Source: an uncultured Alphaproteobacteria bacterium
Lineage (GTDB): Bacteria > Pseudomonadota > Alphaproteobacteria > Geminicoccales > Geminicoccaceae
Length of the DNA: 33,785 nt
Assembly (NCBI GenBank): GCA_902826935.1
Contig: CADEGR010000008.1
Span: 1 to 33,785, forward strand
Reading direction: 5' to 3'
Shown: in pieces, positions 2,138-25,980 of the stretch
Numbering within the stretch: the stretch's first letter is position 1
Layout of the letters: the number at the start of each line of letters is the position of its first letter
Notes under the pieces: model-generated
What the model was told of the DNA's origin: nothing
Database searches by the model: none
Seen by the model: only the letters and a program-made list of their open reading frames with translations
Position numbers and translations under genes: made by a program

Positions 2138-3205
2138 ATGACCGCGCTGCTGCCGCCCGACCATCCGCCCGTGCCGAGCCCCAAGATCGGCGTGCTGCTG
2201 CTCAATCTCGGCACGCCCGACAGCACCGGCTACTGGGACATGCGCCGCTATCTCAAGGAATTCTTGAGCGATCGGCGGGTGATCGAGGTCAATCCGCTGC
2301 TCTGGCAGTTCGTGCTCAACGTGATCATCCTGACCAGGCGGCCCTTCTCGAGCGGCGAGGCCTACAAGGCCATCTGGAACCACGAGCTGAACGAATCGCC
2401 GCTGCGCACCATTACCCGCGCCCAGGCCGAAGCGCTCAGCACCCGCCTTGCCGGGCTGGATGACGGCCGCGTGGTGATCGATTGGGCGATGCGCTACGGC
2501 AAGCCCTCGACCGCGTCCCGGATCGAGGCGCTGCAGCGCCAGGGCTGCGATCGGATCCTGCTGCTGCCGCTCTATCCGCAATATGCCGCCGCGACCACGG
2601 CGACCGCCTGCGACGCCGCCTTCCGGGCGCTGATGACCCTGCGCTGGCAGCCGGCGGTGCGCACCGTGCCGGCCTACTACGACGAGCCGGGCTACATCGA
2701 CGCGCTGGCCGGCTCGGTCCGACAGCATCTGGCGACGCTGGATTGGCAGCCGGAGGTCCTGGTGACCTCGTTCCACGGCTTGCCGAAGCGCTATCTGCTG
2801 GCCGGCGATCCTTACCATTGCCAATGCCAGAAGACCGCCCGGCTGCTGCGCGAGCGCCTGGGCTGGCCGGCCGAGCGGCTGCAGATCGCGTTCCAGTCGC
2901 TGTTCGGCAAGGAGGAATGGCTGCGGCCCTACACGGTCGAGCATGTGGTCGCGCTCGCCGAGCAGGGCGTGCGCGACCTGGCGGTGATGGCGCCGGGCTT
3001 TGCCGCCGACTGCGTCGAGACCTTGGAAGAGATCCAGGGCGAGATCCGCCACGCCTTCGAGGCAGCCGGCGGAACCCGCTTCACCTACATCCCCTGCCTG
3101 AACGACAGCCCGGCCCATATCGACTTCCTGGCCCGGCTGATCGAGCGCGAGCTGGGCGGCTGGCTGGCGCCCGGCCAGGCGGCGACCTTGGCCGCGGCGG
3201 AATAG
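2138..3205 (+). CDS. hemH: Ferrochelatase
   Basis: Inserts Fe2+ into protoporphyrin IX, the last step of protoheme synthesis. The 355-residue protein is full length for bacterial HemH. It opens with the typical core start GVLLLNLGTPD after a short leader, then YLKEFLSDRRVI. The family signature is TSFHGLPKRYL with the metal-binding catalytic His at residue 213, and near the C-terminus GFAADCVETLEEI carries the second conserved Glu. A Cys-x-Cys (CQCQK) follows the signature, as in many proteobacterial enzymes; I see no clear C-terminal Fe-S cluster cysteines. The start is preceded by GAGAGGGAGACG, an excellent RBS. It stands alone on the + strand, and the next genes are convergent. Confidence 0.97.
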   Translation: MTALLPPDHPPVPSPKIGVLLLNLGTPDSTGYWDMRRYLKEFLSDRRVIEVNPLLWQFVLNVIILTRRPFSSGEAYKAIWNHELNESPLRTITRAQAEALSTRLAGLDDGRVVIDWAMRYGKPSTASRIEALQRQGCDRILLLPLYPQYAAATTATACDAAFRALMTLRWQPAVRTVPAYYDEPGYIDALAGSVRQHLATLDWQPEVLVTSFHGLPKRYLLAGDPYHCQCQKTARLLRERLGWPAERLQIAFQSLFGKEEWLRPYTVEHVVALAEQGVRDLAVMAPGFAADCVETLEEIQGEIRHAFEAAGGTRFTYIPCLNDSPAHIDFLARLIERELGGWLAPGQAATLAAAE

Positions 3206-3225
3206 GCGCGCCGGCCAGGCCCGCC

Positions 3226-3927
3226 TCAGCGTGCGAGATCGGGCGGCGGCGGGCCGGCGACCGGCCAGGCGCCGCTCGCGGTCAAGATGTCAGCCGCCCA
3301 GCCACCGGCGCCCTTGGTGCAGCGCACCGGCAGGGCGTTGTGGCTGGTCCACTCGGCGACGGTCAGGCCGAGCGCTGCGAACAGCACGCGCCGCACGCCG
3401 CCATGGGACACGACCAGGACATCATCGGCGACGAGAGCCGCCGCCAGCCCGGTGAGGCAGCGATCGACGAACGCCTCGATCGGCTCGACGCTGGCATCGG
3501 CCTGGGCCCAGAGCGGCCCCTGGATCGGCTGGCCCTCGAAGCGGCCAAAGCCACGTTCGCGCAGGCGTGGATCCAGGCTCGCGACCAGGCCAAGACGCGC
3601 CGCCAGCGGCGCCGCCGTCGCGGTGACGCGGCTGAGATCGCTGGCGCTGATCGCGCGCAGCCCGACCGGCGCGAGGAGGTCGGCCGCGGCCAGAGCCTGG
3701 GCCCGGCCGGCGGCATTCAGCGGCACATCCCGCTGACCCTGGCAGATCCAGCGCCGATTGTGCTCGGTCTGGCCATGGCGCAGGAAATAGAACCGGCTGG
3801 CGAGCGGCGCGAAGCCATGGCCGCGGGCATGGGCCTCGAGCCGCTGGCGCCAGCCTTGATCGAGCACCGCGCCGTCTTCGGCCGGTGCGCCCGGCTCGAG
3901 CCCGATCGGCTCGGACGTTTCGGTCAT
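3226..3927 (-). CDS. Histidine phosphatase family protein
   Basis: A 233-residue member of the phosphoglycerate-mutase-like histidine phosphatase superfamily. The phospho-acceptor motif is FYFLRHGQTEHN (R50, H51, G52) and the second catalytic His is in VVSHGGVRRVL (about H175). LRERGFGRFEGQP supplies the acidic/loop element. An N-terminal extension of about 45 residues precedes the core. The ATG overlaps the stop of the upstream lipoprotein gene as ATGA, so the pair is probably translationally coupled. The substrate is unknown; small phospho-metabolites and sugar phosphates are typical of the family. A longer frame reaching 4188 runs back through the lipoprotein gene and is a shadow. Confidence 0.85.
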   Translation of the reverse strand: MTETSEPIGLEPGAPAEDGAVLDQGWRQRLEAHARGHGFAPLASRFYFLRHGQTEHNRRWICQGQRDVPLNAAGRAQALAAADLLAPVGLRAISASDLSRVTATAAPLAARLGLVASLDPRLRERGFGRFEGQPIQGPLWAQADASVEPIEAFVDRCLTGLAAALVADDVLVVSHGGVRRVLFAALGLTVAEWTSHNALPVRCTKGAGGWAADILTASGAWPVAGPPPPDLAR

Positions 3928-5471
3928 TGGGTCGAGCTCAGGGCACCGCCCGGCGCTTCGACGTTCAAGAACAGATGGCTGACCGCGAGGCGCCCGCCGC
4001 TGCTGACGCGCAGCGCCGCCAACCGCTCCTCGAGGGTCGCCAGATACGCGTCGGCCGGTTCCTCCTCGGGCCGCGGCCCCTCGAATAGGGGCGTCGGCGT
4101 GGCCACCGCCACCACCAGCGACAAGCCGAACGGCTCCGCCAGGCGATGGCCGGTCTCCTCGACATAGCTGCCCAGATCGGCCGGCCACAGCTCGCTGGTC
4201 GAGATCAGATGCTTGACCATGCCGTCGCGCTGGACATAGGCCAGATGCAGGTAGGAATCGAAGCTCGGCAGATCGATGTTGACCGCTAGCTCGCTGCCAG
4301 CCGGGCGGCTGGTGACGCCATCCGGCACGCTGATCGCCAGGCCGAGACCGGCCTCGACATTGATCTTGCGGTAGGGCGCCGTGATCTGCAGCAGGCGGCA
4401 GAACGGCTGCTCGACGCCAGCGCAGTCGAGCGAGGCCAGGACCGCGGCATCGGCGCGGTCGATGAAGCTGGCGGTCTCGCTGACACTGCCGGGATCTGCC
4501 GTGGGCGGCGCGCCGGGCGCCGGCTCGACGGCCGCCAAATCGCCGGGCGGCGGCCCTTCGGGGGTCACCGCATCGGCGATCCGATCGGCGATCTCAGCGC
4601 CGCCAGCCGCGGCGGTCGCCGCTGCTTCGGGCGTGCCGCCGCCCTCCGCTGCCAGCGCTGCCGCCGGGTCCGCCACCGGTTCCGGACGATCCAGCGCCGC
4701 CTCGATCTCGGCTGCCTCGGGCGGCGGGCTCAGCGTCTCGGGCGCGGCCGCGAGCGGCACCGGCTCCGGCTCCGCCTCCTCTGGCGCGGCCGGCGGCAGG
4801 GGGCTCGGCAGATCGGCCTGGGCGATCGTCGGACCGCCGAAATCGCTCGGCACGCCGTCCAGCAGCGCCGCCTCGAACACGCCCTTCGACTGGCAGATCG
4901 TGCCCTTGTCGAATGCGCCGCGGCTGCCGGAATTGAAGGTCACGGTCTCGCGGCTGCCGCGCCGCAGCTGGCCTTGGCGGTCCTCGAAATCGACCACCTT
5001 GGTGGCGACGTAGGTGGTATCCGCCTTGACCACGGTGTCAGCGCCCTGCGGCTCGAGGCTGACCACGACCCGGCCGTCCAGCTGCAGGCTGCGCTTGAGC
5101 AGGACCTGGCGCTTGGCGAGCTTGTAGTCGAGGGCGACCTGGGGCAGCGCTCCGGACAGCTGGGCCAGGGCCTCGCCATCATTGGTGACGATCGAGCCGC
5201 AATCCAGATATTGCTCGGGATCACCGCGAAAGCGCGCCACGATCACCCGCTCGGCGCGGTCGGCATGCTCGATCGTGTAGGGCTGCTGGCTCAACACGTC
5301 GCGCAAGCTCGCCCAGACCGTGTCGGCGTCGCCGCGCACGACCTTTTCGGTGCGCTGCGCCGGCTGGCTGGACGGGGGCACATAACCGACCATCTCGCGT
5401 GCCGGCGGAGTAGCGGCGCAGCCGGCCAGCAGCAAGGCCGCCATGGCGCCCAGGGGCACAGCGCGATTCAT
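3924..5471 (-). CDS. Lipoprotein with acidic Pro/Ala-rich linker and DUF4384-like C-terminal domain
   Basis: A 515-residue exported lipoprotein. Residues 1-18 are a type II signal with lipobox LLAGC (C18). Residues about 35-215 form a globular domain I cannot name. Residues about 220-335 are a disordered Pro/Glu/Ala linker. Residues about 350-480 read like DUF4384 (GLAISVPDG, then DSYLHLAYVQRDG and a conserved W/P region), a module seen on envelope-associated and signalling proteins. The start has GAGG at good spacing. It is first in a two-gene unit with the histidine phosphatase. A role as a periplasmic scaffold or sensor is inference only. It is divergent from the glutaminase-like fusion gene across 214 bp. 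Confidence 0.8.
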   Translation of the reverse strand: MNRAVPLGAMAALLLAGCAATPPAREMVGYVPPSSQPAQRTEKVVRGDADTVWASLRDVLSQQPYTIEHADRAERVIVARFRGDPEQYLDCGSIVTNDGEALAQLSGALPQVALDYKLAKRQVLLKRSLQLDGRVVVSLEPQGADTVVKADTTYVATKVVDFEDRQGQLRRGSRETVTFNSGSRGAFDKGTICQSKGVFEAALLDGVPSDFGGPTIAQADLPSPLPPAAPEEAEPEPVPLAAAPETLSPPPEAAEIEAALDRPEPVADPAAALAAEGGGTPEAAATAAAGGAEIADRIADAVTPEGPPPGDLAAVEPAPGAPPTADPGSVSETASFIDRADAAVLASLDCAGVEQPFCRLLQITAPYRKINVEAGLGLAISVPDGVTSRPAGSELAVNIDLPSFDSYLHLAYVQRDGMVKHLISTSELWPADLGSYVEETGHRLAEPFGLSLVVAVATPTPLFEGPRPEEEPADAYLATLEERLAALRVSSGGRLAVSHLFLNVEAPGGALSSTQ

Positions 5472-12727: not shown

Positions 12728-14043
<1,316 letters not shown>

Positions 14044-14047
<4 letters not shown>

Positions 14048-14886
14048 CGGCGCTGCTCGAGGTGCTGCATCTGACCATGCGCTTTGGCGGCCTGGTCGCG
14101 ATCGACGATCTGTCCTTCACCGCCCATGACCGCGAGATCACGGCGATCATCGGCCCGAACGGGGCCGGCAAGACCACCGTCTTCAACTGCCTGACCGGCT
14201 TCTACAAGCCGACCGTCGGCCAGCTGACCTTCCATGGCCGGGGCCAGCCCTTGCTGCTCGAGCGGATCGACGGCTTTCGGATCGCCCGCGCCGGGGTCGC
14301 CCGGACCTTCCAGAACATCCGGCTGTTCGGCCAGATGAGCGTGCTCGAGAACCTGATCGTGGCGCAGCACAACGCCTTGATGCGCGCCTCCGGCTACACG
14401 CTGCTCGGCGTGCTCGGCCACCCCGGCTACCGCAAGGCCGAGAAGGCCGCAATCGAGCTCGCCAGGCATTGGCTGGACCGGATCGAGCTGACCGACCGGG
14501 CCGATTGGAACGCCGAGAACCTGCCCTATGGCCAGCAGCGCCGCCTCGAGATCGCGCGCGCCATGTGCATGGAGCCGAAGCTGCTGTGCCTGGACGAGCC
14601 GGCGGCTGGGCTAAACCCCCGCGAGACCGCGCAGCTGGGCGACCTGCTGCGCACGATCCGTGACGACAGCGGCATCGGCATCCTGTTGATCGAGCACGAC
14701 ATGGGCGTGGTCATGGGCATCTCGGACCACATCGTGGTGCTCGATTACGGCCGCAAGATCGCGGATGGCAAGCCGGACGAGGTGCGGCGGGACCCGAACG
14801 TGATCAAGGCCTATCTCGGCGAGCCCGAGGAGGCGCCGCTGCCGACGCCAGTCAAGGCCGACCTGGCCGAGGAAGGCCGCTTGTGA
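14044..14886 (+). CDS. livG: Branched-chain amino-acid ABC transporter ATPase LivG
   Basis: A 280-residue cytosolic ATPase. Walker A is GPNGAGKT (residues 37-44), the Q-loop region is VARTFQNIRLF, the signature is LPYGQQRRLEIARAM, and Walker B is LLCLDEPAAGLNPRE. The switch His is in LLIEHDMGVVM. YGQQRR replaces the more usual SGGxQ, as is normal for LivG. It carries the longer insertion typical of LivG relative to LivF and a short Pro/Glu-rich tail. Energises LivHM together with LivF. Confidence 0.96.
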
Positions 14887-15596
14887 TGCTGCAGCTGGCC
14901 GGCGTCCACAGCCATTACGGCAAGATCGAGGCGCTGCGCGGCGTTTCGATCGAGGTGGCGCAAGGCGAGATCGTGACGATCATCGGCGCCAATGGCGCCG
15001 GCAAGTCGACCCTCCTGATGACCATCAGCGGCCGGCCCAAGGCCAGCGCCGGCGAGATCCGCTTCGATGGCCAGCGGCTGAATGGGCTCGAGCCCTACGA
15101 CATCGTCGGCAAGGGCATCGCCCAGGCGCCCGAGGGCCGGCGCATCTTCCCGTCGATGAGCGTGCTCGAGAACCTGCAGATGGGTGCGGTGCCGACCGGC
15201 GGGCGCTATTTCGCCGAAGATGTCGAGAAGGTGTTCCAGCGCTTTCCGCGTCTGCGCGAGCGGCAGAATCAGCGCGGCGGCACCCTGTCGGGCGGCGAGC
15301 AGCAGATGCTGTGCATCGGCCGGGCGCTGATGGCGCGACCACGCCTGCTGCTCCTGGACGAGCCCTCCCTGGGCTTGGCGCCCTTGCTGGTCAAGCAGAT
15401 CTTCGATGCGATCGTCGAGATCAACCAGGAGCAGGGGCTGACCATCCTTCTGGTCGAGCAGAACGCCTATCAGGCGCTCAAGATCGCCCATCGCGGCTAC
15501 GTGCTGGCGACCGGCCACGTGGTGATGCAGGGCACTGGCGCCGAGCTCCTGGCCAATCCGGAGATCCGGGCGGCCTATCTCGAGGGCGGCCATTGA
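14883..15596 (+). CDS. livF: Branched-chain amino-acid ABC transporter ATPase LivF
   Basis: A 237-residue ATPase. Walker A is GANGAGKS (residues 35-42), APEGRRIFPSMSVLENL is a LivF hallmark, the ABC signature is LSGGEQQMLCIGRAL, Walker B is LLLLDEPSLGLAP, and the switch region is ILLVEQN. The start is GTG 14883, overlapping the livG stop by four bases, or ATG 14886. GGAAGG inside the end of livG serves either one. Coupled translation with livG is likely. Confidence 0.96.
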   Translation: MMLQLAGVHSHYGKIEALRGVSIEVAQGEIVTIIGANGAGKSTLLMTISGRPKASAGEIRFDGQRLNGLEPYDIVGKGIAQAPEGRRIFPSMSVLENLQMGAVPTGGRYFAEDVEKVFQRFPRLRERQNQRGGTLSGGEQQMLCIGRALMARPRLLLLDEPSLGLAPLLVKQIFDAIVEINQEQGLTILLVEQNAYQALKIAHRGYVLATGHVVMQGTGAELLANPEIRAAYLEGGH

Positions 15597-17561: not shown

Positions 17562-18107
17562 TCATGTGGGTTTGCGCAGGAGGTGCGCAAAGCCGGATTC
17601 GTTCAGGACGCGGTGGGCGACCAGACGAGAGGCGCGATTCGGCGCGGGGTCAGGGATGGTGGCGACCCGCGCGAGTGCCGCGACGTACTGGGCCGGCAGG
17701 CCGTTCTGGATGGCACCCGCCAGGACCAAGGCGAGGTACCAGTCGTAGGGGATCAAGCCGGGCTCCGGCTGCTTGGCCAGATAGGTGGTGGCGCTGACGA
17801 TTTCGTTGCGGTCGCGGCTCTCGACCAGGAAGGCGTCGTCCCGCCAGTAGCCGTCACCTTCCCATAGATCCAGCTGATCGCGCTCGCTGGCGGCGATTTC
17901 GAACAGGACGCCATGCGCCTCGAGGTCGTTGCCGGATCCGGCCGGCTCGAGCGTGCCTTTGCCGGAACCGTCAAGGCTGCGTTTGCCGAAGGTCAGGCAG
18001 CGAGCGGATGCAATGGCCGTACCCAGGGGTCGGGCGCTCGGACAGCGGTCGGTCAGCCGCTGATGCAGCATGTTGGAGCCATAGGCGAAATAGATGAAGC
18101 CGGTCAC
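17562..18107 (-). CDS. Gamma-glutamylcyclotransferase-like protein
   Basis: A 181-residue protein with the GGCT fold. The glycine-rich substrate loop is YGSNM (residues 9-13). LTFGKRSLDGSGKGTLEP and EAHGVLFEIAASERDQLDLWEG (with the acidic residue expected at the catalytic position) match proteins that release 5-oxoproline from gamma-glutamyl compounds. YWRDDAFLV and an ATTYLA strand follow. The start is GTG 18107 behind AGGCGG. It lies 30 bp downstream of the EamA exporter gene on the same strand, so the two may be cotranscribed. The substrate is unproven. Confidence 0.85.
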   Translation of the reverse strand: MTGFIYFAYGSNMLHQRLTDRCPSARPLGTAIASARCLTFGKRSLDGSGKGTLEPAGSGNDLEAHGVLFEIAASERDQLDLWEGDGYWRDDAFLVESRDRNEIVSATTYLAKQPEPGLIPYDWYLALVLAGAIQNGLPAQYVAALARVATIPDPAPNRASRLVAHRVLNESGFAHLLRKPT

Positions 18108-19058: not shown

Positions 19059-19149
19059 GCTCTGCCACCCGCTGCAGGGGCTGGCGCCCTACGGCCACCC
19101 CGCCGGCCCTGCTTTATCACTCTTGGGTAGCATCGTGCCGGTTTTAATT

Positions 19150-19200
19150 GCGCCGAGCAATGACTTGGCGGCTTTGGCTGCGCCAAGCCATGGCTTGGCG
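19150..19200. promoter_or_regulatory. Two phased palindromes upstream of the EamA gene
   Basis: CGCCAAGCCATGGCTTGGCG (19181-19200) is a perfect 20-bp palindrome. Exactly 30 bp away GCGCCGAGCAATGACTTGGCG (19150-19170) repeats the same 21-bp frame with three differences. A 30-bp phase (about three helical turns) and dyad symmetry are what two dimer sites for one regulator would look like. They lie between the EamA start (19058, -) and the end of the RND gene (19209), so the EamA promoter is the natural target. Confidence 0.6.
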
Positions 19201-19208
19201 TGGCGCCA

Positions 19209-22200
19209 TCATCCTGGTGATGGCGCTGCCGGCGCCGGCCGATCGCCGCGGAGCGCGATGTAGATCGCCGGAATCACCAGCACGGTGAGCAAGGTCGACG
19301 AGGCGAGCCCGAACAGCAGCGAGATCGCCAGGCCCTGGAAGATCGGATCGGTCAGGATCACGGCCGCCCCGATCATCGCTGCGAGCGCGGTCAGCAGGAT
19401 CGGCTTGAAGCGAATGGCGCCGGCCGCCAGCAGGACCGAGCGCAGGCTCTCGCCCGGCTGGCCACCATGGCGGATGAAGTCGGCGAGCAGGATCGAATTA
19501 CGCACGATGATGCCGGCCAGCGCGATGAAGCCGATCATCGAGGTCGCGGTGAAGGGCGCCGCGAACAGCCAGTGGCCGAGCATGATGCCGATCAAGGTGA
19601 GCGGAATCGGCGTCAGGATCACCAGCGGCAGCTTGAACGAGCCGAACTGGGCCACGACCAGGATGTAGATGCCGAGCAGCGCCACCATGAAGGCTGCCCC
19701 CATGTCGCGGAAGGTCACCCAGGTGACCTCCCATTCGCCGTCCCAGAGCAGGGTCGGCCGGGCCTCGTCCGCCGGCTGGCCATGGAGCGCGATGGTGGGC
19801 TTGGGCACGTCTTGCCAGTCGACCTGCTCGAGCGCTTCGGCGACCGCCAGCATGCCGTAGACCGGGGCCTCGAAAGCGCCGGCCAGCTCGGCCGTGACCA
19901 TTTCCGCCGCCCGGCCGTTGTGGCGGAAGATCGGGAAGGAGGCCGGCTCGCGCGCCAGCTGGACCACGTCGCCCAGCTCGACGATCGCCCGCTCGCCCGG
20001 CAGGGCGTTGGCCGGCACCGGGGTCGCCAGGCCGCGCTCGCCCACCAGCTGCTCGCTCTTGCTAAGGGCGATCCGGATCGGGATCGGCTGGCGACCGGCG
20101 CCGCGATGGGAGTAGCCGACCGTGCTGGCGCCGTAGAAGGCGCGGATCGTGTCGTAGACGTCGCTCTGCTCGACCCGATGATATTCCAGATTGTCCTGGT
20201 CGATCGCCAGGCGCACCCGCTCGGCCTGGCGGCCGTAGGAATCGTCGACATCGACGATGAACGGCACGCTCGCGAAGGCCGCCCGGACCTTGGCAGCAAC
20301 GGCCCGTCGGGTTTCGGGGTCCGGGCCGTAGATCTCGGCCAGGAGGGTGGCCAGAACCGGCGGTCCGGGCGGCGGCTCGATCACCTTGAGGCTGGTGCCG
20401 GCCGGCAGCGGCAGATCCTTCAGCCGCGCGCGCAGATCGAGCGCGATCGCGTGGCTCGCCCGGCTGCGCTCCGCCTTGCCGACCAGGTTGACCTGCAGCT
20501 CGCCCTGCTCGGGGCTGCTGCGCAGGTAGTAATGGCGGACCAGGCCATTGAAGTTGAAAGGCGCCGCCGTGCCGGCATAGCTCTGGAACGAGACGACTTC
20601 GGGCACGGCCGCCAGCCGCAGCGCTGCCGCCTGCAAGGCGCGATCGGTCGCCTCGACCGAAGCGCCCTCCGGCAGATCCAGGACGACCGCCAGCTCGGTC
20701 TTGTTGTCGAACGGCAGCAGCTTGACCGTCACGTCCTTGCTGTAGATCAGCAGCGTCGACGCCAGCGTCGCCGCGCCGACCAGCAGCAGGAACAGCCAGG
20801 CCCGCCAGCGGGCGGCGAGGATCGGCCCCGCGACCGCGATATAGAGCCGGCCGAGCGCGCCGACGGTCTCGCCATGCCCAGCGCCAGCCGCGGTGGCGTG
20901 GCCGCCCAGCTTCAGCATGAGCCAGGGGGTGAGGGTCACCGCGACGAAGAACGAGAACAGCATTGCGGCGGAGGCATTGGCCGGGATCGGGCTCATATAG
21001 GGGCCCATCATGCCGGCCACGAACAGCATCGGCAGCAGGGCGGCGACCACCGTCAAGGTCGCGACGATGGTGGGATTGCCGACCTCGGCCACGGCGTCGA
21101 TCGCCGCCTGGCTGCGGCTGCGGCCGTCGGCCATCGCCCAGTGGCGGGCGATGTTCTCGATCACCACGATCGCGTCATCGACCAGGATGCCGATCGAGAA
21201 GATCAGCGCGAACAGGCTGACCCGGTTGAGCGTGTAGCCCATGATCCAGGCGGCAAACAGGGTGAGCAGGATCGTGGTCGGGATGATCACGGCCACCACC
21301 ACCGCGGCCCGCCAGCCAATCGCCACAGCGACCAGCGCGACGATCGAGACGGTCGCGAGGCCGAGATGGAACAGCAGCTCGTTGGCCTTCTCGTTGGCGC
21401 TCTCGCCATAGTCGCGGGTGATCAGCAGCGCGACATCGGCCGGCACGATCTGGCCTTGCAGCTCGGCCAGACGCGTCCGGATCGCCTCGCCGATGACCAC
21501 GGCGTTGGTGCCGGCGCGCTTGGCGATCGCGAGCGACACCGCCGGCCGGCGCTCCAGCCCCTCGCCGGCCTTCTGCAGGCTGGCGACGCGGGTCTCGTTG
21601 GGCGCGGTCGCCAGCTGGATGCGCGTGACGTCGCGCACATAGATCGGCCGGCCGTCGCGCGCGGTCAGCAGCAGATTGCCGATCTGGCTCGGGCTCTGCA
21701 GCGTCTGGCCGGCGATCAGCGCCCGCTGCTCCTGGTCCTCGCGCACGCTGGCGATCCGGAACGAGCGGTTGGCGCCCTCGATCTTGCCGGCCAGCTGCTG
21801 CAGGGTGATGCCATAGAGCGAGAGCTGCTCCGGATCGGGCTCGATCCGGAGCTCCTCCGGCTGCTCGCCGACGATATAGGTGAGGCCGACCTCCGGCAGC
21901 TTGGCGATCTCGACCTGGAGCTCGCGGGCCAGCCGGGTCAGGCCGTTCTCGGTCCAGCGATCGCTGGCGCTCGTGGTGGGCGTCAAGGTGACCACCAGGA
22001 TCGCGACATCGTCGATGCCACGCCCGACGATCAGAGGTTCCGGAATGCCGACCGGGATGCGGTCGAGATTGGCGCGGATCTTCTCGTGGACCCGCAGGAT
22101 CGCGGCATCCGAGCTGGTGCCGACCAGGAAACGGGCGGTCACCAAGACGCCGTCGTCCCGGGTCTGCGAGTACACATGCTCGACGCCGTCGATGCTCTTG

Positions 22201-22427
22201 ACGATGGTCTCGAGCGGCTCGGTCACCAGCTTGACCGCGTCCTCGGCCTTGAGGCCATCCGCCCGGATGTGGATATCCACCATCGGCACCGAGATCTGCG
22301 GCTCCTCCTCGCGTGGCAGCATGACCAGCGCCAGGAGGCCGACCGCGAAGGCAGCCAGCAGGACCAGCGGCGTCAGCGGCGAGCGGATCGAGCTGCGGGT
22401 CAGGACGCCAGCCAGGCCCAGCTTCAT
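19209..22427 (-). CDS. RND efflux pump inner-membrane subunit (HAE-type)
   Basis: A 1072-residue AcrB-like proton antiporter with two six-helix halves and large periplasmic loops. It starts with a short N-terminal helix (SPLTPLVLLAAFAVGLLALVMLPREEEPQI). The proton-relay Asp pair is in SIGILVDDAIVVIENIARH (D417, D418). In the second half GIIVRNSILLADFI puts Arg where AcrB has Lys940, as in many uncharacterised HAE clades. Methionine-rich heavy-metal (CusA) features are not evident. Its ATG overlaps the adaptor stop as ATGA. It is last in an operon with a sulfide:quinone oxidoreductase; the substrate is unknown. No outer-membrane factor gene is in the window. Confidence 0.93.
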   Translation of the reverse strand: MKLGLAGVLTRSSIRSPLTPLVLLAAFAVGLLALVMLPREEEPQISVPMVDIHIRADGLKAEDAVKLVTEPLETIVKSIDGVEHVYSQTRDDGVLVTARFLVGTSSDAAILRVHEKIRANLDRIPVGIPEPLIVGRGIDDVAILVVTLTPTTSASDRWTENGLTRLARELQVEIAKLPEVGLTYIVGEQPEELRIEPDPEQLSLYGITLQQLAGKIEGANRSFRIASVREDQEQRALIAGQTLQSPSQIGNLLLTARDGRPIYVRDVTRIQLATAPNETRVASLQKAGEGLERRPAVSLAIAKRAGTNAVVIGEAIRTRLAELQGQIVPADVALLITRDYGESANEKANELLFHLGLATVSIVALVAVAIGWRAAVVVAVIIPTTILLTLFAAWIMGYTLNRVSLFALIFSIGILVDDAIVVIENIARHWAMADGRSRSQAAIDAVAEVGNPTIVATLTVVAALLPMLFVAGMMGPYMSPIPANASAAMLFSFFVAVTLTPWLMLKLGGHATAAGAGHGETVGALGRLYIAVAGPILAARWRAWLFLLLVGAATLASTLLIYSKDVTVKLLPFDNKTELAVVLDLPEGASVEATDRALQAAALRLAAVPEVVSFQSYAGTAAPFNFNGLVRHYYLRSSPEQGELQVNLVGKAERSRASHAIALDLRARLKDLPLPAGTSLKVIEPPPGPPVLATLLAEIYGPDPETRRAVAAKVRAAFASVPFIVDVDDSYGRQAERVRLAIDQDNLEYHRVEQSDVYDTIRAFYGASTVGYSHRGAGRQPIPIRIALSKSEQLVGERGLATPVPANALPGERAIVELGDVVQLAREPASFPIFRHNGRAAEMVTAELAGAFEAPVYGMLAVAEALEQVDWQDVPKPTIALHGQPADEARPTLLWDGEWEVTWVTFRDMGAAFMVALLGIYILVVAQFGSFKLPLVILTPIPLTLIGIMLGHWLFAAPFTATSMIGFIALAGIIVRNSILLADFIRHGGQPGESLRSVLLAAGAIRFKPILLTALAAMIGAAVILTDPIFQGLAISLLFGLASSTLLTVLVIPAIYIALRGDRPAPAAPSPG

Positions 22428-23458
22428 GGCAGCAGCACCCGATCGCCCGCGATCAGGCCGGTCAGGATCTCCTGGTGCCGGCCGGCGTCATCATCGATCG
22501 CCTCGCCCAGCACCACCGCGACCTCCTGCGGCCCCGCTTCGGTCTGGACCCGGACGAAGTCGATGCCGTGGCGGGTGATCACCGCGGCGGGCGGCACCGC
22601 CAGCAGCTCGCGCCGGCCGACCGGGATCCAGACCAGGGTGCGCTCGTTGACGAAGTAGCTGCCGAGGCCCTCGACCTCGACATCGGCGATCACGCGGCCG
22701 GCGTCGATCTCGGGATAGACCTTGACGATCCGGCCAGTGGTCGTGCTGGTTCCGGCCTCCGATGCGGCGCCGCGGCGGGCGCCGATCTGGACCGGATCAC
22801 CATCCTTGATCTCGGCGGCATGCCGTTCGGGCAGCGACAGGCGCAGGTAATAGTGGCCGCTCGCGACCCGCGCCACCTCCTCGCCGGCCATGATCACGGA
22901 ACCAGCCGTGACCGGCACCGTCAGCACGCGCCCGCTCGCCGGCGCCTGGATCTCGCCTTCGCGCGCCTGCTGCTCGAGCACCGCGCGATCGGCGATCGCC
23001 GCCGCCACCTGCTTCACCACCACGTCGAACGCGGTCTTGGCCTGGTCGAGCCGGCTCTGCGCGCCCACGCCCCGCGCCAGCAGCTGCTGCGCCCGCTCGA
23101 GCTCGGTCCGGGCGTTGGCCTCCTGGGCGCGCAGCTGGTCGATCCGGGCATCGGCGGCATCGAGCTGGAGCGCGATCTTGTCGTCGACCACCAGGCCGAT
23201 CGGCTGGTCCTCGGTGACGCTGTCGCCCTCGGTCACGTCGATCCGCCGGATCGTCCCGCCGATGCGCGCGCGCGCCGGCACGATGGTGCGGCTCTCGACC
23301 CGGCCGAACACCGCCTTGGTTTCGACAATGGTCATGGGCTCGACCAGGAACTCGGCCGCGCCCGCGCCGATCGGCACCGCACTGCCGGCGATGGCGAGCA
23401 GCAAGGCCGCGGCCAAGCGTGGCCGGCGCCCGTATCGGTGATGGACCAAGGAGACCAT
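22424..23458 (-). CDS. RND efflux periplasmic adaptor (membrane fusion protein)
   Basis: A 344-residue HlyD/AcrA-type adaptor that links the RND pump to an outer-membrane channel. It begins MVSLVHHRYGRRPRLAAALLL, a signal sequence cleaved near GAGA/A. The lipoyl-like half-motifs are RIGGTIRRIDVTEGDSVTEDQPIGLVVDD and IQAPASGRVLTVPVTAGSVI. Between them is a coiled-coil hairpin (residues about 105-160, ARIDQLRAQEANARTELERAQQLL). The beta-barrel part follows. ATG 23458 is chosen because it gives a clean signal peptide; a longer frame overlaps the DUF2892 gene. It overlaps the pump gene by four bases. Confidence 0.92.
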   Translation of the reverse strand: MVSLVHHRYGRRPRLAAALLLAIAGSAVPIGAGAAEFLVEPMTIVETKAVFGRVESRTIVPARARIGGTIRRIDVTEGDSVTEDQPIGLVVDDKIALQLDAADARIDQLRAQEANARTELERAQQLLARGVGAQSRLDQAKTAFDVVVKQVAAAIADRAVLEQQAREGEIQAPASGRVLTVPVTAGSVIMAGEEVARVASGHYYLRLSLPERHAAEIKDGDPVQIGARRGAASEAGTSTTTGRIVKVYPEIDAGRVIADVEVEGLGSYFVNERTLVWIPVGRRELLAVPPAAVITRHGIDFVRVQTEAGPQEVAVVLGEAIDDDAGRHQEILTGLIAGDRVLLP

Positions 23459-23469
23459 GATGCGTCCGC

Positions 23470-23673
23470 TTACTGGAAGGCGACGCCGCTCCTGCAGCCA
23501 AGCCGGCGGAACAGCATGGCCGCCGGGCAGAAGCCGGTCAGGGACGCCTGGATCAGGTTCAGGCCGACAAAGGCGGTGAGCAGGTGCCAATAGGGCGAGA
23601 CATAGAGCCCCAGCACCAAGGACAAGAGCACCATGCCGCCTGCGAACATCATGACAGCGCGATCAATCGACAT
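23470..23673 (-). CDS. DUF2892 (YgaP-like) inner-membrane protein
   Basis: A 67-residue protein with two helices (VMMFAGGMVLLSLVLGLYVSP and WHLLTAFVGLNLIQASLTGF) and the family's end motif GFCPAAMLFRRLGCR with two cysteines. DUF2892 modules are found alone or fused to rhodanese domains (YgaP) in sulfur-handling contexts. ATG 23673 is set by GAGGAG seven bases upstream. It lies 51 bp after the sulfide:quinone oxidoreductase and 11 bp before the RND adaptor, so it is the middle of the operon. A role in sulfane-sulfur handling or thiol sensing at the membrane is inference from the neighbourhood. Confidence 0.85.
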   Translation of the reverse strand: MSIDRAVMMFAGGMVLLSLVLGLYVSPYWHLLTAFVGLNLIQASLTGFCPAAMLFRRLGCRSGVAFQ

Positions 23674-23724
23674 CAGAGATCTCCTCGTCGGCAAAGACTA
23701 GGTTTAGGACCGGCAGCCGCGCGG

Positions 23725-25017
23725 CTAGTCGGCCTCGGCGATATGGATGGCCTTCAGCTTCTTGATCCCGAGCAGATCGAGGGTCAGGTTCTCGTAGAAA
23801 GTCTCGCTCTTGCCGCGTCGGACCTTGTGCAGGAAGTATTTCTCGAAGCCGATCTTGGCGGCGTGGACCCATTTGCCTTGCGACGACCAGTTGACGTTGC
23901 GCGGCGGGATCTGAGGCTGGGCGACGAAGGCGATGCCTTGATCGCCGAAATCGGCCAGGCAGACCGCGTTCCAGGTCGCGGCGGCATTGGCCGGCGCGCC
24001 CTGCAGCACAGCACCGATATTGTGGGCGGTGGCGGTGACCATCGATTCGATCATGAAGCCGGTCTTGGGCACGCCCACCGGCAAGGGCGTCTTGCCGACC
24101 GGCGGTATCGCGACGCAGACACCGACGGCGAAGATATTGGGGAAGGCCGGGTTGCGCTGGTGCTGATCGATCAGCACGAAGCCGCGCGGGTTGGTCAGAC
24201 CAGGGATTCCGGCAATCGCCGCGACGCCGCGGAAGGCGGGCAGGATCATCGAGAGCGCGAACGGCAGCTCGTGGGCCGCCTTGGCCGCACCGTCCTCGCC
24301 AACCTCCTCGACCAGCATCCGGCCCGGCTCGACCTGATTGATGCGGGTGTTGACGTGCCACTTGATGTGCCGCTCGCGCATGGCGCTTTCGAGCAGGCTC
24401 TTGGTGTCGCCGACGCCATCCAGCCCGAGATGGCCGATATAGGGCTCGGGCGTGACGAAGGTCATCGGCACCCGGTCGCGGACCCGCGCCCGGCGCAAGG
24501 CGGTATCGAGGATGAAGGCGAATTCGTAGGCCGGGCCAAAGCAGGATGCGCCCTGGGCGGCACCGATCACCACCGGTCCTGGCGCCTTGACCAGCGCCTC
24601 GAACGCCGCCTTGGCGTGGAGCGCATGATCAAGCTGGCAGATCGACTGGGTATGGCCCTTTGGGCCCAGCCCCGGCACCTCGTCGAAGGCCAGCTCGGGC
24701 CCGGTCGCGATCACCAGATAGTCGTAGTCGAGCATGCTGCCGTCCAGCAGCTCGAGCCGGTTGGCTTCGGGTTGCAGGCGCTTCGCCCCTTCGGGCCGCA
24801 GCTCGATGCCGCGCCGGCGCAGGACCGCCGCGAGATCGACCGTGATCTCCTCGGGCGCGCGCCAGCCCACCGCGACCCAGGGATTGGACGGCACGAAATG
24901 GAAGCTGCTCCCAAGGTTCACCACCGTCAGCCGATCATCCCGCCGCAGCTTCGCTTTCATCTCGAAGGCCATGAGCACGCCGCCCAGGCCGGCACCAAGC
25001 ACCACGATATGCGCCAT
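23725..25017 (-). CDS. Sulfide:quinone oxidoreductase
   Basis: A 430-residue FAD enzyme that oxidises sulfide and passes electrons to the quinone pool. The N-terminal dinucleotide fold is HIVVLGAGLGGVLMAFEM, with the second FAD block DYDYLVIATGPELAF. Three cysteines fall where the SQR active-site set is expected: C127 (SICQLDHA), C159 (QGASCFGPAYEF) and C353 (NAVCLADFGDQGIAF). They agree closely with C128/C160/C356 of the Acidithiobacillus enzyme as I remember it. GVCVAIPPVGKTPLPVGVPKTGFMIESM is the quinone/FAD-proximal motif. ATG 25017 follows GGGGAGGGAGG. It is first in the operon SQR-DUF2892-adaptor-RND and divergent from the persulfide-sensor-like repressor. Confidence 0.93.
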   Translation of the reverse strand: MAHIVVLGAGLGGVLMAFEMKAKLRRDDRLTVVNLGSSFHFVPSNPWVAVGWRAPEEITVDLAAVLRRRGIELRPEGAKRLQPEANRLELLDGSMLDYDYLVIATGPELAFDEVPGLGPKGHTQSICQLDHALHAKAAFEALVKAPGPVVIGAAQGASCFGPAYEFAFILDTALRRARVRDRVPMTFVTPEPYIGHLGLDGVGDTKSLLESAMRERHIKWHVNTRINQVEPGRMLVEEVGEDGAAKAAHELPFALSMILPAFRGVAAIAGIPGLTNPRGFVLIDQHQRNPAFPNIFAVGVCVAIPPVGKTPLPVGVPKTGFMIESMVTATAHNIGAVLQGAPANAAATWNAVCLADFGDQGIAFVAQPQIPPRNVNWSSQGKWVHAAKIGFEKYFLHKVRRGKSETFYENLTLDLLGIKKLKAIHIAEAD

Positions 25018-25202
25018 CACCCTCCCTCCCCGAGTAGGGCCGGCCCGCACCGGCCGGACGATTGGGGTCGGGCTTGCGGCAGCACAAGGCTCCGACCATC
25101 ATGGCGGACACGGCGTCGCGCCGCTTGATCTGGCGCAATCGCCGCGGCCCGCCGGCCGATGGTCTGGCTGATTCGCAACCAGCGTCTCGGCTCCATTGCA
25201 TC

Positions 25203-25241
25203 TAACATTCAAGAGTATTAAATTCAAGTCTATGAATGTTA
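25203..25241. promoter_or_regulatory. SqrR/BigR-type operator overlapping the repressor start
   Basis: An outer perfect dyad TAACATTCA (25203-25211) / TGAATGTTA (25233-25241) encloses an exact ATTC-N8-GAAT (25222-25237), the motif I recall for SqrR. The right half is shared by both. The site covers the ATG at 25232 and overlaps promoter-like hexamers TTGCAT (25196-25201) and TAAATT (25219-25224) with 17 bp between them. On the other strand TTGAAT and TAGATG, also 17 bp apart, could fire the SQR operon. Binding here would repress both directions. Confidence 0.75.
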
Positions 25242-25531
25242 CGACGATGATCCCCGCCGCGGAACGGGCCGCCGAGCTGATGCGCAGCTTGTCGCATCCA
25301 CAACGCCTGCTGGTGCTCTGCGCCTTGGGCCAGGGCGAGAAATCGGTCGGCCAGCTCAGGCAGGAGCTGGGCATCGAGCAGGTGCCGATGTCGCAGCAGC
25401 TGATGCGGCTGCGCGCCGACGGCCTGGTCGAAGCGCGGCGCGAGGGCACGACGGTCTACTACCGGATCGCGCGGGGCGAGGTGCTGACCGTGGTCGAGGC
25501 GCTGCAGCAGGCCTTCTGCCCCACCCCGTGA
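25232..25531 (+). CDS. ArsR-family repressor, SqrR/BigR-like persulfide sensor
   Basis: A 99-residue winged-helix repressor. The helix-turn-helix is [28 protein letters not shown], followed by the wing [15 protein letters not shown]. The metal-binding ELCVCDL of classical ArsR is absent. Instead one Cys lies in LVLCALGQG (C30) and one near the C-terminus in AFCPTP (C96), 66 residues apart. SqrR (C41/C107) and BigR (C42/C108) have the same spacing and form a tetrasulfide link when sulfide-derived persulfides rise. It is divergent from the SQR operon, with an SqrR-type operator across its start codon. The start could also be TTG 25196; the promoter geometry favours a nearly leaderless ATG 25232. 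Confidence 0.88.
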
Positions 25532-25638: not shown

Positions 25639-25980
25639 ATGCTCCGGACCACCTTCGTCTATGCGGGCGCCGCCTTGGCGGAGATCGCCGGCTGCTACGC
25701 CTTCTGGGCCTGGCTGCGGCTCGGCCAGTCGGCACTCTGGCTGGTGCCGGGCTGCCTGGCACTCGCCAGCTTTGCCTGGCTGCTCACTTTGGCCGAAAGC
25801 AGCCACGCCGGCCGCGCCTATGCCGCCTATGGCGGCGTCTACATCGCGGCCTCGCTGCTCTGGCTCTGGCGCATCGAGCAGCGGATCCCGGACAAATGGG
25901 ACCTCCTGGGCGGCCTCATCTGCCTGGCCGGCGCCGGCCTGATCCTGTTCGGCCCACGCAGCAGCGTCCAGGGCCTTTAG
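25639..25980 (+). CDS. ynfA: YnfA/UPF0060 family membrane protein
   Basis: A 113-residue protein with four hydrophobic helices. It has the family's typical text: [53 protein letters not shown] and [21 protein letters not shown]. YnfA belongs to the small multidrug-resistance-like fold and its transport role is disputed. The usual length is about 108 residues, so this is complete. ATG 25639 follows CCGAGG. Its last codons overlap by four bases the end of the convergent Calx-beta gene. Confidence 0.93.

Follow-up and report, generated by a model that had tools for sequence, protein, structure and literature searches.

Why should a gene for sulfide oxidation and the genes of an RND efflux pump stand together behind a divergent repressor of the SqrR/BigR type? 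The question is raised by a locus in the window that we analysed, the 33,785-nucleotide stretch that forms positions 1 to 33,785 of contig CADEGR010000008.1 from an uncultured Alphaproteobacteria bacterium of the family Geminicoccaceae (assembly GCA_902826935.1). Four genes on the minus strand, encoding a sulfide:quinone oxidoreductase (SQR), a small DUF2892 membrane protein, a periplasmic adaptor and an RND permease, diverge there from arsR on the plus strand (Table 1). All five lie where a sequence-only reading of this DNA had placed them, ArsR divergent and the pump genes closely packed, the spacing along SQR, DUF2892, adaptor and permease being exactly 51, 11 and -4 bp (two gaps and a 4-bp overlap). 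Pfam and NCBIfam models agree with the gene names at the locus, ACR_tran scoring 443 bits on the permease. The four genes are predicted to be co-transcribed; no sigma-70 consensus promoters were found at the locus, a result that is uninformative for this GC-rich genome.

Table 1. Features of the locus, with positions in the window.
Feature	Position	Strand	Basis or remark
RND permease, 1072 aa	19209-22427	-	ACR_tran domain match
RND periplasmic adaptor (HlyD/membrane fusion protein)	22424-23458	-	RND_mfp above cut-off
DUF2892 / YgaP-like membrane protein, 67 aa	23470-23673	-	YgaP-like_TM 45 bits
Sulfide:quinone oxidoreductase (SQR), type I-like, 430 aa	23725-25017	-	alignment to characterised SQR
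SqrR/BigR-type ArsR repressor, 99 aa, Cys30 and Cys96	25232-25531	+	HTH_5; SqrR 2e-20, BigR 1e-19
Strong hairpin directly 3' of the RND stop, candidate transcript end	19130-19208	-	no T-run terminator called
Inverted repeat TAACATTCA-N21-TGAATGTTA	25203-25241		the intergenic region has no other perfect 9-bp inverted repeat
Core site ATTCAAGTCTATGAAT	25222-25237		fits ATTC-N8-GAAT; inside the larger inverted repeat

Several genes around this unit were also noted. A gene for a YnfA/UPF0060 membrane protein (25639-25980, plus strand) follows arsR at about 107 bp in the same direction and could share its transcript. Slightly more than 1 kb beyond the operon end lies a gene for an AIG2 (gamma-glutamyl cyclotransferase-like) protein (17562-18107, minus strand), a possible link to glutathione, and the branched-chain amino acid ABC transporter genes at 12728-15596 (plus strand; a permease and two ATPases) are ordinary.

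The enzyme at the head of the unit aligns over its whole length with the SQR of Acidithiobacillus ferrooxidans (1e-143, residues 2-423), and in that alignment Cys127, Cys159 and Cys353 occupy the active-site redox positions, as the sequence-only reading had said of three active-site cysteines. By full-length similarity and these three redox cysteines the protein classifies as a predicted type I sulfide:quinone oxidoreductase. It is the one SQR of the source genome; the length given in Table 1 assumes the ATG start, and a GTG at 25050 is an alternative.

The solved relatives closest to the ArsR protein are SqrR of Rhodobacter capsulatus, then BigR, HlyU and YgaV, and both of its cysteines align at the sensor positions. 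Against the BigR equivalog model NF040642 it scores 85 bits, below the curated cut-off of 155, and it is therefore assigned only to the wider SqrR/BigR group (an alternative arsR start is the ATG at 25247). With SqrR, BigR (Xylella, Agrobacterium) and YgaV (Escherichia coli) it shares the family, both cysteines and a site of the ATTC-N8-GAAT type, but the classical targets of those regulators are sqr, the Blh sulfurtransferase/dioxygenase or ygaVP, and an RND pump is not a defining target.

The intergenic region between sqr and arsR is 214 bp long, and its inverted repeat, which is conserved at loci with a close repressor, is the probable operator region. The core site inside it follows the pattern ATTC-N8-GAAT, the deduced SqrR site (PMC9774250), and is overlapped by an imperfect second copy at 25207-25224. 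Exact matches to the core site number one in the 4.77-Mb source genome, at this locus. Upstream of repressors near related pumps a perfect ATTC-N8-GAAT occurred in 38 of 98 regions and in 0 shuffles, and for the closest repressor type the site was perfect or one base off, at a constant offset, in 41/41 upstream regions. As the core site and the first ATG of arsR overlap, the repressor probably controls its own gene; the same site would also control sqr, about 190 bp away. Homology, both cysteines and the conserved SqrR-type operator-like site together make persulfide control of the unit very probable, which gives strong support to the sensor control proposed in the sequence-only reading, and we would expect repressor binding and induction by sulfide at this locus.

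Is the pump bound to such a neighbourhood elsewhere? Of 289 genomes in the class, 26 carry a copy with at least 61% identity, the window's own genome among them; below this come one fragment at 40% and then sequences at 29% or less, so that the RND clade is bounded; a scan of named genomes found 80 loci at 69-81% identity, mostly in Hyphomicrobiales and Rhodobacterales. We counted neighbours within 7 kb of the RND gene and took as controls the 19 RNDs of the class that scored best outside the clade. At least one of the three markers, DUF2892, two-cysteine ArsR or SQR, stood near 19 of the 22 clade members in the class sample (18, 14 and 6, respectively) and near 17 of the 20 in a phylum sample (13, 12 and 12), compared with none of the 19 controls for any marker (Fisher p 8e-9 for 19/22 versus 0/19). 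The named-genome sample (n=69), a set dominated by close relatives, gave 65 with any marker (62 DUF2892, 50 ArsR, 41 SQR). The sequence-only reading had asked whether the RND clade is specific to sulfur neighbours and had counted a clade mostly away from sulfur genes against itself; the clade proved to lie mostly beside the regulator type, DUF2892, SQR or a rhodanese, but SQR itself was missing near 16 of the 22 class-sample members. SQR is thus an accessory, the stable unit being ArsR, DUF2892, adaptor and RND permease, and we reject SQR as the defining partner of the clade.

Clustering of neighbouring ORFs without preselection ranked a rhodanese-type sulfurtransferase first among the additional neighbours, at 14 clade loci; it also accompanied relatives at 37-46% identity in two distant tiers (6 and 12 loci, 18 together) and none of the controls. 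Persulfide dioxygenase, YeeE and TauE genes were sought beside clade loci lacking SQR and few were found, so they are no general replacement for SQR beside the pump. On a plasmid of Paracoccus denitrificans PD1222 the pump is preceded by an MBL-fold hydrolase (persulfide dioxygenase-like), DUF2892, YeeE, a sulfurtransferase, ArsR, two cytochromes and a second DUF2892. Linkage is still frequent in these 37-46% tiers, nearly all of whose members lie beyond Alphaproteobacteria: any marker was present at 10/17 and 17/19 loci. Within the 37-41% tier (loci L204-L217) an outer-membrane factor gene of its own is usually nearby, and SQR and a rhodanese are often present.

These counts bear on the possibility that the pump genes are merely adjacent, the RND not being co-regulated with SQR or having no functional tie to sulfide. 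The 51-bp gap after SQR would suit it, as would the minority of clade members with no recognised sulfur neighbour, but the tight spacing of the other genes speaks against it, as do linkage across Pseudomonadota and an identical order, divergent ArsR followed by SQR, DUF2892, adaptor and RND, at 30 of 125 clade loci; the same order without SQR recurs at 18 of the 125. On a quick tree, with SH-aLRT as its only support measure, the clade is separate and well supported with all controls outside it, and the linked label requires 13 changes compared with a shuffled mean of 36. Chance adjacency is rejected by the control comparison and by this tree, we consider the lack of any co-regulation or functional tie highly improbable, and the linkage of the pump is real and conserved. 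The tree also holds, among the more distant relatives, one well-supported sister subclade (L184-L189 and L192, about 44% identity) that is unlinked and lacks all the sulfur neighbours; substrate residues could naturally be compared against it.

What kind of pump is it? The permease has the features of an HAE-like RND, with full-length ACR_tran, the Asp-Asp pair in TM4 and an adaptor gene. Its Asp417, Asp418 and Arg976 are invariant across the clade; the Asp417/Asp418 pair is the established RND proton relay, and Arg976 stands at the position of Lys940 in AcrB. Family, proton relay and adaptor partner are shared with the HAE-type pumps AcrB, MexB and MexK, whereas from the other RNDs of the class the window's clade differs in being separate, sulfur-linked and almost free of cysteine. 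No outer-membrane factor gene is present in the operon, and the two OEP-family genes of the source genome lie on other contigs; since a linked factor is often missing from RND systems, its absence does not disqualify the permease as an HAE-like RND. Neither permease nor adaptor in the window contains cysteine, and permeases without it number 112 of 125 in the clade and 3 of 20 among controls. Such scarcity would be expected of proteins exposed to persulfides or other reactive sulfur and fits that view, the clade as a whole counting as one observation. The DUF2892 protein, for its part, has a TGFCP motif whose cysteine is Cys49, and motif and cysteine are kept in more than 90% of clade members.

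On one reading the cargo of the pump is metal, either as ions or as the sulfides that arise from the reaction of sulfide with metals in the cell, and export of metal sulfides has been proposed for sulfide-induced efflux pumps generally, in work on such RND pumps in Azospira suillum (PMC5358917). We consider it improbable here, since the fit to the CusA/CzcA-type model TIGR00914 is weak (228 bits against a cut-off of 701) and the regulator resembles persulfide sensors, not metal sensors; identity as a CusA/CzcA heavy-metal RND is rejected on the same score. A stronger contender, yet still rather unlikely, is a pump that sulfide stress induces for general cleaning of the envelope and that disposes of the hydrophobic toxins, quinone adducts or thiol conjugates that come with sulfide, and not of sulfane sulfur. 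It would agree with the solved RNDs nearest in sequence, which are largely multidrug pumps, with a multidrug-type model score (383 bits) above the CusA/CzcA-type one, both far under their cut-offs, with the survival of the linkage where SQR is missing, and with the sensing of sulfane sulfur by MarR-family regulators of antibiotic resistance described in the accessible text of PMC11211675. Against it, the clade is tied far more narrowly to persulfide-type regulators and DUF2892 than the 19 control RNDs, none of which has such neighbours.

Whether the linkage had been described elsewhere was left undecided in the sequence-only reading; in outline, it has. In Azospira suillum PS an operon described in 2017 (Dsui_3440-3443) encodes SQR together with an efflux pump and an adaptor of the RND type; it was flagged by Bar-seq fitness and is sulfide-induced and highly expressed, and deletion of its SQR or of the whole operon left the rate of sulfide oxidation unchanged (PMC5358917). 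As the experimental case closest to the window's operon it speaks against a need for such a pump in oxidation itself, a result that concerns oxidation rate and not tolerance or export. The operon is likened to that of the window by gene content, SQR, RND pump and adaptor being common to both; the gene order differs, and ArsR is not mentioned in that paper, while the window has a divergent one. In 2025 Li et al., as far as the accessible text goes, named RND pumps among the likely targets of two-cysteine ArsR repressors that respond to sulfane sulfur and proposed that those pumps, near sqr-linked ArsR in some genomes, transport sulfur compounds (PMC12423496). Their survey and the window have in common a two-cysteine ArsR near sqr and RND, but the survey, in the same text, is general and does not contain this ordered operon. 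With the accessible parts of these two papers the general linkage of SQR, RND pump and repressor is known; in the accessible main-text literature we did not find this pump clade, its operator or the primacy of ArsR and DUF2892 over SQR, and no pairing of DUF2892 with an RND pump beyond PMC5358917.

A functional link between the pump and sulfide stress is likely. The explanation that we put forward as best, tentatively, is a sulfide/persulfide-stress operon that would export a reactive sulfur product or adduct. The two-cysteine ArsR would act at the ATTC-N8-GAAT site to repress the divergent region and, by analogy with SqrR, be released once sulfane sulfur bridges Cys30 and Cys96. SQR would convert sulfide to polysulfide or a low-molecular-weight persulfide and pass the electrons to quinone, and the DUF2892 protein may use its conserved cysteine to keep sulfane sulfur at the membrane or hand it on there. 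Adaptor and permease, with an outer-membrane channel encoded elsewhere, would then clear the periplasm or membrane of polysulfide, organic persulfide or an adduct of these. The role of DUF2892 and the substrate are conjectural, and in our judgement it is just short of probable that the pump exports a sulfane-sulfur product or an adduct of it. A bolder and more doubtful proposal is that this distinct RND subfamily, almost devoid of cysteine and retained beside SqrR/BigR-type sensors and DUF2892 throughout Pseudomonadota, might be dedicated to the export of sulfane sulfur, as polysulfide or organic persulfide, or of elemental sulfur precursors.

The source genome has a SoxZ match and two further SqrR/BigR-like regulators. 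One, on contig C21 (positions 2277-5191 of locus L273), precedes genes for a persulfide dioxygenase-like protein, a sulfurtransferase and a TauE exporter, and the arms of its upstream repeat match those of the window operator; the other, an ArsR regulator on contig C5 (1655-1927 of L274), is 41% identical to the window's ArsR. From the gene set on C21 and the shared repeat arms, the genome seems to hold two arms under related switches, a bigR-type arm of the classical kind, for oxidation to sulfite followed by export, beside the SQR-RND arm, and the two would respond together. As for origin, 16 other genomes of the family carry the pump at 54-65% identity, whereas the window's permease is 81% identical to a copy in Nitratireductor and groups with Hyphomicrobiales on the tree, which suggests that the operon was likely gained horizontally.

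The disposal of polysulfide and persulfide from sulfide oxidation is only partly known, dioxygenase and sulfite export being one route. If a conserved pump lineage is indeed under persulfide control, it would offer a second disposal route and a genetically simple place to seek a sulfane-sulfur exporter, and the definition of the clade, the operator site and the candidate cysteines make this directly testable. Should the proposal of a dedicated exporter be true, inorganic or persulfide sulfur would be the substrate of an RND pump. Such a lineage under persulfide control could also explain one way in which sulfide exposure alters efflux capacity.
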